A DNA stretch of 64,000 bases from Streptomyces sp. NBC_00239 (GTDB lineage: Bacteria > Actinomycetota > Actinomycetes > Streptomycetales > Streptomycetaceae). Every line of letters begins with the position of its first letter. Position 1 is the stretch's first letter. The notes under the pieces are model-generated. The model was not told where the DNA came from, did not search any database, and was given only the letters and a program-made list of their open reading frames with translations. This document shows positions 15,903-18,839 of this stretch, in pieces. A program made the translations under genes and the position numbers. Location: NCBI RefSeq assembly GCF_036194065.1, contig NZ_CP108095.1, positions 1,550,001 to 1,614,000 on the forward strand, written 5' to 3'.

Positions 15903-17177
15903 CTACACGCCCAGTACCTCCTTCGCGGGAGCGCGCAGGTGTCCGCCCCGGGCCAAGGCCGCGACCGCGACGGCGCACAGTCCACCGACGGCCGCGAGCA
16001 GGGCCCAGGGCGCGAAGGCAAGGCCGGCACCGCGCGCGGCGTCGAGCACGACACCGGTGGCGAGGTTTCCGAGGGTGATGCCGATTCCGCAGACGGTGTT
16101 GTAGAGGCCGTAGTGGGTGGCGACCCACCGCTCACGCGCCAGCGCGACGATGGTGTCCATCTCGAACGGGTACAGCACTGCCGTGGCCAGGGCCAGCGCA
16201 GCGGAGCATGCGAGCAGGGGCAGCACGGCGAGGACCGTGGACGGCCACCCTGCGGCCGGCGGCCAGGAGGAGCTCAGCAGTGGGGGCAGGAACGCGGCGC
16301 CCATCAGGGCCAGCCCCGCGACCAGGCACTGCTGCGGTGTCCAGGTGCGCTTGCACCATGCCGTGATGCGCAGTTGCCCGAACAGGGCGACCAGTCCCGA
16401 GACGACGAACAGGGCGCTGGTGCACGCCGTGCCCAGCGCTCCGTCGCCGGCCAGCCGTGCGGTTTCCAGTGGGAGGGCGAGGTAGATCTGGAAGGACAGG
16501 ACGTAGGAGCCGGTCATGGCCGCCGCGAACAGCCAGAAGGGCTTGTTGCCGAGTACCGCCGTCGCCTGGGTGCGCAGAGACACCGGTTCGCCGGTGGGTC
16601 CGCCGCTCCGCTCAGGCAGGCGGCGGGTCTGCAAGACCGTCAGGGCCGCGAACAGTGCAGCGGCCACCAGGCACGTTACGGGGAACGAGACAGCGGTGAG
16701 AGCGAGTCCGAGCAGCGGGCCGAGCAGGATGCCGGTCTGGTAGAAGACGTTGAACAGCGCGAACGCCTCCACCCGCCGCTCCCCCGATTCGGCCGCGAGG
16801 TAGGCGCGCACCGCAGGGTTGAACAGCGCACCGGCCAGCCCGGTGGCCGCGGAGGCGGCGATCAGGGTGGGGAGGGTGTCGGCGAAGGCCAGAGCGGCGA
16901 ATCCGACGGTGCGCAGGGCGCATCCGGCGACGATCAGCGGCTTGTAGCCGAGCCGGTCGGCAAGGGCGCCCCCGATGAGGAACATCCCTTGCTGGGAAAG
17001 GTTGCGGACGCCGAGGATCAGGCCGACCGCCCAGGCCGCCAGGGCGAGGGAGCTGGAGAGGTGTGCGGCGAGGTAGGGCATCAGCATGTAGAAGCCCAGG
17101 TTGATGGTGAGCTGGTTGATCAGGAGCAGCTGCACCGCCGGGTCGAAGGAACGGGCCTGCCGCCACACACCGGTCAC
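15903..17177 (-). CDS. MFS transporter of the CysK2 pair (Rv0849-like, copy 1)
   Basis: The GTG at 17177 overlaps the TGA of the cysK2-like gene (GTGA) and gives a 424-residue, 12-helix MFS protein. The A-motif region is GGALADRLGYKP and a conserved block PFEMDTIVALARERWVATHYGLYN lies late in the protein. It is clearly paralogous to the transporter at 41060. In M. tuberculosis the copper-induced lpqS-cysK2 operon continues with the MFS gene Rv0849; gene order and coupling are the same here. Substrate unknown; export of a cysteine-derived product is a reasonable inference. Confidence 0.85.
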   Translation of the reverse strand: MTGVWRQARSFDPAVQLLLINQLTINLGFYMLMPYLAAHLSSSLALAAWAVGLILGVRNLSQQGMFLIGGALADRLGYKPLIVAGCALRTVGFAALAFADTLPTLIAASAATGLAGALFNPAVRAYLAAESGERRVEAFALFNVFYQTGILLGPLLGLALTAVSFPVTCLVAAALFAALTVLQTRRLPERSGGPTGEPVSLRTQATAVLGNKPFWLFAAAMTGSYVLSFQIYLALPLETARLAGDGALGTACTSALFVVSGLVALFGQLRITAWCKRTWTPQQCLVAGLALMGAAFLPPLLSSSWPPAAGWPSTVLAVLPLLACSAALALATAVLYPFEMDTIVALARERWVATHYGLYNTVCGIGITLGNLATGVVLDAARGAGLAFAPWALLAAVGGLCAVAVAALARGGHLRAPAKEVLGV

Positions 17178-18283
17178 CGGCCGGCTCCCATCTGGGGCGT
17201 GGAGGCCGTGGTGGTGCGGTGCAGAGGGTCGACGACGCGGGGGCAGCGCGTCCACGAGGTGACTTCACGCTCGCCGGGGTCCCCCAGGAAGTCCGGGGTT
17301 TCGGCGGGGCGGACGCCGAGGAGGTTGTTCGCGGCGCAGTAGTCGTCGTTGAAGACGGTGTCGAAGTAGCGGTGCGGGCCGTCGGGGAAGACGGCGACGA
17401 TGCGTGTGTCCTTGGGGCTGGTCCGGGCGAGCCAGCCCGCAACGAGGGCGACGGCGCCGACGCTCCATCCGCCGGTGGCGTAGTGGCGGGAGGCCAGGGC
17501 GCGGGCGGCCCAGACGGCCTCGCCCGGGGCGACCCAGTGGACTTCGTTGAAGGCCGGGTAGTCGACGTTTCCGGGGTGGATGGAGGAGCCGAGACCCCTC
17601 ATCAGCCTGCTGCGGGCGGGCTGACCGAAGATGGTGGAGCCGATCGTGTCGACGCCGACGAGCTGCAGCCCTGGCATGCGGGGGCGTAGGGCACGCGCGA
17701 TACCCGCGGAATGACCGCCCGTACCGACCGCGCAGACCAGGATGTCGATGGTGTCGAGCGGCTCTGCCAGTTCGGCGGCGAGAGGCGCGTAGGCATCGAC
17801 GTTGTCGGGGTTGTTGTACTGGTCCGGGCACCAGGCGGCCGGGTTCTCGGCGAGGAGTTCGGCCACCTTGTCCAGGCGCGCCTGCTGCCAGCCGCCCGTG
17901 GGGTGCGGCTCAGGTACGAGATGGACGTGCGCGCCGTGCGCGGCCAGCAGCCGGTCCATGATCGGTTCCATGCCGGGGTCGGTGACCACGTGGACGGGAT
18001 GACCGTAGATGACGCCGGCGAGGGCAAGACCGAGACCAAGGGTGCCGGAGGTCGACTCCACGATGGGGGCGCCGGGTCGGAGTTCACCGCGCTCGCGGGC
18101 CTTCGCGACCATGTGCAGGGCCGCGCGGTCCTTGATGCCTCCCGGGTTGAAGCCTTCGAGCTTGGCCCAGAAGCCTTGCGGGGCGCGGGCGAAGGGTTCG
18201 TCGACGTAGAGCATCGGCGTCGAGCCGACTGCGGAGAGCAGGCTCGGGTTGCGGGCAGGCAGGGGTGAGGCGAGGTGCTTCAT
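17174..18283 (-). CDS. cysK2: CysK2-like PLP-dependent beta-replacement enzyme (copy 1)
   Basis: This 369-residue fold-type II PLP enzyme has the Schiff-base Lys in GFNPGGIKDRAALHM and a glycine-rich phosphate loop, CAVGTGGHSAG. The substrate loop reads ESTSGTLGLGLA where classical O-acetylserine sulfhydrylases have TSGNTG, so the amino-acid substrate probably differs. M. tuberculosis CysK2 uses O-phosphoserine and thiosulfate to make S-sulfocysteine and lies in a copper-induced operon with lpqS and an MFS gene; the present gene set mirrors that. It has about 60-70 residues more than CysK. The ATG at 18283 is followed by a typical enzyme N-terminus. Confidence 0.82.
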   Translation of the reverse strand: MKHLASPLPARNPSLLSAVGSTPMLYVDEPFARAPQGFWAKLEGFNPGGIKDRAALHMVAKARERGELRPGAPIVESTSGTLGLGLALAGVIYGHPVHVVTDPGMEPIMDRLLAAHGAHVHLVPEPHPTGGWQQARLDKVAELLAENPAAWCPDQYNNPDNVDAYAPLAAELAEPLDTIDILVCAVGTGGHSAGIARALRPRMPGLQLVGVDTIGSTIFGQPARSRLMRGLGSSIHPGNVDYPAFNEVHWVAPGEAVWAARALASRHYATGGWSVGAVALVAGWLARTSPKDTRIVAVFPDGPHRYFDTVFNDDYCAANNLLGVRPAETPDFLGDPGEREVTSWTRCPRVVDPLHRTTTASTPQMGAGR

Positions 18284-18428
18284 GAAGGTGCGGCTTCCTG
18301 TGCTCGGGCGCACCAGATCCCGCCCATGCCTGTCAGAGCAGGCGTGTGGCCAGGCAGCGCCCAGGGACATGCGGATGGCGGCGGCCCAGCCGGCCGTCCT
18401 TGTCAGGACGGAGGCAGGGCGGGCCCGG

Positions 18429-18839
18429 TCATCTGCGGTCCACGCACGACAGGTTCCGTGGATCGGGCCGGTTGAGGGCCACACTTGAGGCACGAGGAAG
18501 GGGACCGCTGAACAGCAACTCCGCAGAGTGGTCCGTGGCGGGCTCCAGGCCCGCGACGTGGCCCTCCTCGCCATCGGGCTTGTTGGCCGTGTGCTCTTCG
18601 ACAGCCCGGTTTCCGGCGTGGCAGCCGCCGTCCACCGGGTCCACGGCGCGGGGCTGGCCGGCGGCGGCAATACCAGGAGCGGTCTGTGCGGACGAGACCG
18701 GCTGCATGGTGGACGCCAGCTGGTGATGTCCGGCCGAATCACACACCCCGAGCAACAGAATCAACGTGGCGCCGAGCAGGAGGCCGACGAGCCACCGCTC
18801 GTGCCTCACGCTCCGCAACAACCGTTCTCGATACCGCAT
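18429..18839 (-). CDS. LpqS-like small exported protein heading cysK2 operon 1
   Basis: This 136-residue protein has a basic N-terminus, one hydrophobic segment (about residues 15-33) ending in GVCDSAGHHQ, and a polar extracytoplasmic part containing Cys and His (GGCHAG, EEHTANK). Size, topology and position before cysK2 match mycobacterial LpqS, a copper-induced lipoprotein; direct sequence similarity is weak. A box TAGCGT lies 10 nt before the ATG on its strand and a palindrome spans the same bases. The gene ends 145 nt before the cysK2 start. An internal GTG (18809) is an alternative start. Confidence 0.6.
   Translation of the reverse strand: MRYRERLLRSVRHERWLVGLLLGATLILLLGVCDSAGHHQLASTMQPVSSAQTAPGIAAAGQPRAVDPVDGGCHAGNRAVEEHTANKPDGEEGHVAGLEPATDHSAELLFSGPLPRASSVALNRPDPRNLSCVDRR

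Follow-up and report, generated by a model that had tools for sequence, protein, structure and literature searches.

A putative nascent-chain metal sensor at the head of cysK2-MFS operons in Streptomyces

Introduction

The mycobacterial genes lpqS, cysK2 and Rv0849 are reported to be members of the RicR regulon (PMC10470581), and mycobacterial CysK2 is reported to be an S-sulfocysteine synthase that can use O-phosphoserine (PMC12910592). Within this copper regulon, lpqS is treated as a lipoprotein gene. Here, we focus on an operon of the same kind in Streptomyces sp. NBC_00239, located in a stretch of 64,000 nucleotides (contig NZ_CP108095.1, positions 1,550,001 to 1,614,000) that is termed the window throughout, and in particular on its first gene, a small exported open reading frame (ORF) preceding the genes for a pyridoxal phosphate (PLP) enzyme and a major facilitator superfamily (MFS) transporter. 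We propose that LpqS-like ORFs of this type may act as nascent-chain metal sensors controlling the enzyme and transporter genes downstream.

Copper sensors of this general plan have been described in other bacteria, namely CruR of Bordetella, which belongs to DUF2946, and CutF of Rhodobacter (PMC9973294). In Streptomyces lividans, seven proteins containing RAPP or RGPP are reported to arrest translation, in living cells as well as in vitro. Arrest is supported by either motif and, only in part, by RSPP; one of the seven, SLIV_16130, lies before a metal-related gene and carries Cys48, Cys66, His50, His58 and His61 (PMC12992588). Arrest with a stop codon in the ribosomal A site has a reported precedent in other peptides (PMC10987492).

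Copy 1 of the operon lies on the reverse strand of the window, and the ORF and Pfam data bear out a sequence-only reading in which a small exported ORF (S1), a CysK2-like PLP enzyme and an MFS transporter follow one another with a GTGA overlap, formed by the TGA stop of the enzyme gene and the GTG start of the transporter gene (table 1). The span given in that reading, 17174..18839, omits the MFS gene. Its comparison with the mycobacterial operon also stands, since the gene order is the same and the small protein there is named LpqS in one source; S1 itself lies directly upstream of cysK2, and a mycobacterial relative (P0132) bears the LpqS name. S1 has no match in Pfam up to an E-value of 0.1. 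Among 13 relatives of the mycobacterial protein, 11 have a precomputed match to the family PF26327; in a local Pfam run, that family matched none of six mycobacterial ORFs, nor S1, nor the corresponding ORF of copy 2 (S2b). To call the operon a second example, found in Streptomyces, proved too modest: this genome holds four enzyme-MFS pairs, of which two lie in the window and the others at 6.727 and 8.207 Mb, and relatives occur frequently in the genus. The three-gene unit is thus of a known and widespread kind (lpqS-cysK2-MFS); what would be new is to read the first gene as encoding a metal sensor that acts as a nascent chain and has, in Streptomyces, a tail linked to the stop codon.

A conserved tail at the stop codon

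The relatives sampled are the best 80 of 569 loci and are mutually related. At these loci and at the four copies of this genome, ORFs that end close to the start of the enzyme gene were compared by their hydrophobic segments, and the one with the strongest segment was taken as the LpqS-like ORF (S ORF), with the tail ignored; 79 S ORFs were obtained in this way from 84 loci. One locus (L026) had too little upstream sequence and four (L029, L040, L050, L051) had no ORF bearing a transmembrane (TM) segment; L040, L050 and L051 do have the tail, and their exclusion lowers the counts. The 79 include L027, L038 and copy 4, where the ORF picked is not of this leader type, and L047, L049, L062 and L075, where it is of the S3a type described below (L047, L049 and L075 also belong to the S3a set). 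Loci were assigned by hand, from record titles, to Streptomyces, mycobacteria or others.

Anchored at the stop codon, the S ORFs share the tail GRxxLxxx[CS]xxR[IR]-stop, while the body of the ORF diverges. Counting back from the last residue, R-2 is present in 73 of the 79, L-9 in 66, G-13 in 65, R-12 in 63, C-5 in 49 (Ser in a further 17), I-1 in 48 and R-1 in 16, and the entropy of the key positions is 0.5-1.8 bits, against 2.0-3.5 bits at the other positions listed. The same picture is obtained from the 61 S ORFs that are less than 50% identical over their last 90 residues. Residues R-12, L-9, G-13 and R-2 are encoded by four to six synonymous codons, and selection therefore acts on the peptide. 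A cysteine stands at -62 to -67 in 52/79, compared with a mean of 9.4 and a maximum of 19 when the bodies are shuffled. Tail, register, spacing and stop codon are thus conserved, as is the position before the enzyme gene.

The stop codon itself is strongly biased. In the Streptomyces group, TAG ends 52/56 S ORFs (the four own copies included) but 0/56 PLP genes and 5/55 MFS genes (own copies not counted), and 75/487 of the other genes of the same loci. The codon is also linked to the last residue, TAG following Ile, Leu or Val in 50 of 53 S ORFs and any other end in 5 of 26, counts that are uncorrected for relatedness. Because a finished protein carries no trace of the stop codon used, this preference points to something that happens at termination or close to it.

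A replicate drew on 15 of 197 genomes of the class that have the enzyme at E up to 1e-100. It gave 17 loci from other genomes, 12 of them with an S ORF, and C-5 and R-2 are present in all 12 (one of them already in the first set, the other 11 new). Of the other five loci, one has no TM-bearing ORF; the remaining four lie behind a DUF364-like protein as in copy 4 (by eye), and the tail is absent.

The usual Streptomyces operon opens with a further small ORF, termed S3a, found at 43 of the 80 loci. Its ends are VLRI, VLQV, VRQV and similar, with TAG as the stop in 42/43 and a cysteine at -54 to -59 in 42/43. A -10-like box, TANNNT, lies exactly 6 nt ahead of the S3a start codon in 45/45 cases (the 43 loci with copies 2 and 3) and at 0/167 control starts, and this spacing suggests that the S3a mRNA is leaderless. 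At copy 3, a palindrome, TTCAACT..TTAGTTGAA, lies upstream of S3a (L017, about 10400), and a near-identical one is found at L034; we take both to resemble an ArsR-type operator.

DUF6153 proteins and the RAPP/RGPP motif

Ends of the same general form occur in DUF6153, a family found in 17/61 genomes of the family Streptomycetaceae. Its members end in SLxELQLLRI or similar: R-2, L-3, L-6 and L-9 are each present in 23 of 24 proteins, TAG is the stop in 23/24 and a cysteine stands at -53 to -59 in 23/24, the sole exception being a misframed ORF (L130). The motif R[AGS]PP stands at exactly -14 in 18/24, in 15 of them as RAPP, and 20/24 loci have a DUF305-type neighbour (judged by eye; the window's own gene was tested). 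Among mycobacterial S ORFs, R[AGS]PP is found in 7/10 at -25 or -26 (shuffled mean 0.10) and, in a second set, in 7/11 at -24 or -25 (mean 0.20). A steadier mark of the motif-bearing mycobacterial ORFs is a pair of His two residues apart at -74 to -78, present in 7/7 of the first set and 6/7 of the second.

The window contains a DUF6153 leader of its own, which supports reading such ORFs as leaders. Its 5' part overlaps with two perfect CsoR-type sites (43996 and 44034), and the DUF305 gene follows.

Proposed mechanism

We propose, with a probability of about 0.52, that the locus is a leader-enzyme-exporter operon in which the LpqS-like ORF is a nascent-chain metal sensor that switches the enzyme-MFS pair. 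The enzyme would catalyse a beta-replacement of the CysK2 type, probably with O-phosphoserine as substrate, and its small amino-acid product would probably leave the cell through the MFS protein; activity and export are read from the family and from the constancy of the pairing. The LpqS-like ORF would function mainly as a sensor threaded out of the cell during its synthesis, such that the His/Cys site, some 62-78 residues from the end, would emerge from the membrane while the ribosome stands at or near the stop codon. Metal bound at this site would then change the length of the ribosome's wait at a conserved signal near the C-terminus, which is likely to be RGPP/RAPP near -25 in mycobacterial members and a GRxxLxxxCRWRI tail ending at UAG in Streptomyces. 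The wait would in turn alter expression of the downstream pair, and the route may be exposure of the Shine-Dalgarno (SD) region, Rho as in CruR, or coupling. The wait itself, the identity of the metal (most likely copper), the sign of the response and the switching of the downstream genes are all inferred from sequence patterns.

A wider proposal is more tentative and, in our judgement, falls somewhat short of even odds: LpqS-like proteins, S3a ORFs and DUF6153 may together make up a single large class of actinobacterial nascent-chain sensors of metal, each with a His/Cys site that leaves the membrane at a fixed distance and with a C-terminal signal anchored at the stop codon. The Streptomyces signal (CRWRI-UAG, VLRI-UAG or LQLLRI-UAG) would then be a new arrest motif that acts at termination on UAG, with sensing at the membrane read out via release factor 1 and with two sensors in series before many cysK2-MFS operons.

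Several observations weigh against the sensor proposal. The link to the stop codon is not universal, since mycobacterial S ORFs end in TGA in 10/10; the stop-codon counts are raw counts over related loci. R[AGS]PP is found in only 1/56 Streptomyces-group S ORFs (shuffled mean 1.64) and in 1/13 of those from other actinobacteria. In DUF6153 and mycobacterial LpqS, residues C-terminal to RAPP/RGPP are also conserved, which arrest at that motif would not explain. S1 has the weakest tail, DPRNLSCVDRR-TGA, which keeps C-5, R-2, R-1 and Cys-64 and is without the consensus G-13, R-12 and L-9 and without TAG; its nearest relatives, L019 and L098, end in GRDVLNRLCVSRR and GRDLLCKACVSRT, both with TGA, and copy 1 may, judging by this tail, respond poorly. 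The same holds for the leader-enzyme gap: pairing of the S1 tail with the far side of the gap is not above shuffles at copy 1, such pairing exceeds shuffles in only 19/68 loci, and the SD region is less paired than in shuffles (0.49 vs 0.61). Masking of the SD region by a leader hairpin is thus unsupported as a general switch.

Were the sensor proposal correct, cysK2 and its exporter would be under a second, translational layer of control, and phenotypes of lpqS disruption may reflect effects on the downstream pair. Copper-responsive arrest peptides would be extended to a widespread actinobacterial operon, along with a motif tied to one stop codon. Within the open-licence literature, we found no paper linking lpqS to an arrest peptide and none on DUF6153, and did not meet the nascent-chain reading of the LpqS-like ORF; titles and abstract openings for lpqS/Rv0847 mention no leader or arrest role.

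Alternative explanations

The strongest alternative, which we consider unlikely, is that of the sequence-only reading: a copper operon of the RicR type. On this view, the small protein binds copper and does its work after export, and the enzyme produces S-sulfocysteine, or a thiol compound related to it, to meet copper stress. In its favour are the RicR membership of the mycobacterial genes and the reported effect of copper on cysK2 expression in BCG (PMC9048740), and the exported part of the small ORF does bear His and Cys. The window that holds both copies also contains a copper-type ATPase and six perfect TACCCN5GGGTA sites, where 100 shuffles gave none. These CsoR-type sites are not at the operon, however. 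None of them lies before copies 1 and 2, the only site near copy 3 has one mismatch (L017:10938), and in 75 relatives such sites are not clustered upstream, perfect ones within 2.5 kb of the enzyme gene occurring only at L072 and L077. Control of copies 1-3 by a CsoR/RicR operator is thereby not supported, and because operators are missing before the copies and do not gather upstream in relatives, the Streptomyces operon is probably not of the CsoR/RicR type. Furthermore, a working mature protein explains neither the choice of stop codon nor conservation confined to a short end.

Less probable still is a C-terminal degradation or sorting signal on a short-lived exported protein. CutF is reported to be rapidly degraded after export (PMC9973294), and a signal of this sort would account for the conserved end behind RAPP/RGPP. 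It would leave unexplained both the choice of TAG and its link to the last residue.

In serine acetyltransferase, the C-terminal Ile inserts into the CysK active site, and the tail could by analogy be a docking peptide that enters the PLP enzyme and tethers or inhibits it, given that 48/79 tails end in Ile beside an enzyme of the cysteine-synthase fold. We regard this as improbable and have set it aside: similar LRI-TAG ends occur on DUF6153 proteins beside DUF305-like genes, TAG is unexplained, and L-9 and R-2 are both kept in 35/50 S ORFs with one predicted TM segment and in 28/29 with two, which would place the tail on differing sides of the membrane. Least probable of all is that the conserved end is an RNA element overlapping the stop codon, for although the gap is more stably folded than its shuffled versions (mean z -2.4 over 74 loci; -2.1 at copy 1), the Arg-4 codon is CGG in 35/43 and some tails do pair with the far side of the gap, the key residues use varied synonymous codons and no structure is shared, two-sided changes being found in 3/23, 7/33 and 7/27 pairs in three groups.

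The PLP enzyme

The best NCBIfam score of the copy 1 enzyme is to SbnA (TIGR03945), at 240.9 bits and under the cut-off of 349.95, followed by cysKM at 167.2; it also falls below the equivalog cut-offs for CysK (146.3 vs 350.95) and CysM (134.6 vs 394.2). Its closest solved relative is SbnA. A tree of 41 rows, midpoint-rooted, with several long outgroup branches and without Rv0848 itself, places the four own copies in a clade of 33 rows (support 100/100) with other actinobacterial relatives and with mycobacterial proteins, including two under the name CysK2. Outside this clade fall S. aureus SbnA with two proteins of this genome (L005, L008), the genome's own CBS (L007), L006 and three own paralogues (L134-L136) that receive no name from the family scan, two of the three having TSGNTG loops. 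The CysK2-like identity assigned from sequence alone therefore survives its phylogenetic check, as the enzyme groups with named mycobacterial CysK2 and apart from CBS, SbnA and the TSGNTG-loop paralogues. The TSGTLG loop, which had been singled out as pointing to a substrate other than O-acetylserine, is indeed present (as ESTSGTLG), but it is a trait of the family, found in 76/80 relatives, and sets copy 1 apart in no way; GG[IML]KDR is found in 80/80. L005 (C1:8.33 Mb) and L008 (C1:4.20 Mb) are above the SbnA cut-off (2,3-diaminopropionate biosynthesis) and are distinct from the four CysK2-type copies.

In 74/80 loci, the enzyme gene is followed downstream by an MFS gene at a distance of no more than 500 nt (the misses are L026, L027, L035, L038, L077 and L086). 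The pairing exceeds chance, and this constant partner favours export of the CysK2 product.

Other copies and features of the window

A scan of the window for ORFs with such ends and a hydrophobic segment gave seven of 362, a list and not a test, as the patterns were devised after the ends had been seen. Six are leader-like: 3266-3673, 18429-18839, 38682-39179, 39294-39788, 43991-44557 and 46374-46793.

Table 1. Features of the two operon copies and other small exported ORFs, in window positions.
Feature	Position	Strand	Remarks
S1, LpqS-like small exported ORF, copy 1	18429..18839	-	136 aa; hydrophobic segment near N-terminus
S1/enzyme gap, copy 1	18284..18428	-	145 nt
CysK2-type PLP enzyme, copy 1	17174..18283	-	Pfam PALP, 181.5 bits
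MFS transporter, copy 1	15903..17177	-	Pfam MFS_1, 102.9 bits
S2a, first small exported ORF of copy 2 (S3a type)	38763..39179	+	Ends VVLQV-TAG; -10-like box 6 nt before start codon
S2b, LpqS-like small exported ORF, copy 2	39294..39788	+	Ends GRSMLADVCRWRI-TAG; Cys at -62 and -66
CysK2-type PLP enzyme, copy 2	39930..41063	+	In the 33-row CysK2 clade
MFS transporter, copy 2	41060..42361	+	GTGA overlap with enzyme gene
DUF6153 leader	43991..44557	+	RAPP at -14; end SLSELQLLRI-TAG; before DUF305 gene (44662-45294); true start probably further in
Small exported ORF	46374..46793	+	Ends TTAILRV-TAG; DUF6153 19.1 bits and DUF2946 21.1 bits, both below cut-off
Small exported ORF	3266..3673	+	Ends GVDLHALQVQRI-TAG

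One gene pair occurs twice in the genome, at 46374-47727 of the window and at L017:14303-15480: a DUF6153-like small exported ORF is followed by the gene for a membrane protein that has a His-rich end and no match in Pfam. On the reverse strand, 36819-37173 holds a broken-looking small exported ORF, with a hydrophobic start in one frame and a RAPP...LDHLCVSRT end in another.

In the neighbourhoods of the relatives (1.5 Mb in total), the window's copper-type ATPase is matched at 14/80 loci, its DUF305 protein at 26/80 and its CsoR-like protein at 3/80; in this genome (9.3 Mb), the ATPase is matched 17 times and the DUF305 protein 5 times, all of these being raw counts. Beside copy 3, at G000 C1:6.68-6.74 Mb, lies a second metal-rich region with several DUF6153 and DUF305 matches and three matches to the copper-type ATPase.

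Copy 4 (L018:6635-16352; C1:8.205-8.214 Mb) is set among other genes than copies 1-3. Its neighbours include an ATP-grasp protein with an L-amino-acid-ligase C-terminal domain and a DUF364 'putative heavy-metal chelation' protein, as well as an enolase-superfamily enzyme, a methyltransferase, a family-5 binding protein and a permease, and a small metallophore pathway is possible. Upstream genes like those of copy 4 were seen by eye at four loci of the same genus (G033, G040, G194, G233). The ethylenediamine disuccinate (EDDS) cluster was considered as a literature model for copy 4, and nothing useful was found.

Comparison with known systems

SbnA acts in the staphyloferrin B pathway on O-phosphoserine and glutamate. 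It resembles the copy 1 enzyme as its closest solved relative and top-scoring family, and differs from it in that the score is below cut-off, the clade is separate and the loop of the S. aureus protein is TSGNLG.

The S. lividans arrest peptides (PMC12992588) are likewise small, exported and encoded upstream, and their motif recurs in DUF6153 and mycobacterial S ORFs at the frequencies given above, whereas S1, S2a, S2b and 55/56 Streptomyces-group S ORFs do not have it. A text search of the main text of that report found no mention of lpqS, mycobacteria or cysteine synthase. SLIV_16130 has two Cys 18 residues apart, as do the DUF6153 proteins of L099 and L117 (-72, -54), which also show the His pattern in part. 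The five Cys/His spacings of SLIV_16130 are not all matched at any one DUF6153 locus, and we infer from the partial match that it may be a DUF6153 protein.

CruR and CutF share with the present ORFs the plan of a small exported ORF that precedes metal genes and holds metal-ligand residues at a fixed spacing from a conserved motif near the C-terminus; by its reported residue numbers, Cys93 of CruR is 53 residues from the end, and the DUF6153 cysteine mostly 54. Unlike these sensors, S1 and S2b have no PF11162 (DUF2946) match (the ORF at 46374 scores 21.1 bits against a cut-off of 23.7), CXXC and RAPP are missing from S1, S2b and Streptomyces S ORFs, the Streptomyces tail reaches the stop codon itself and the downstream genes differ.

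The mycobacterial lpqS-cysK2-Rv0849 operon is alike in gene order, enzyme clade, TSGTLG loop, MFS partner and a small exported ORF with the same end register. The Streptomyces copies differ from it in having no RicR/CsoR-type site, in usually having two small ORFs in place of one, and in a tail that ends in RWRI-TAG without RGPP, copy 1 being of the CVDRR-TGA type.

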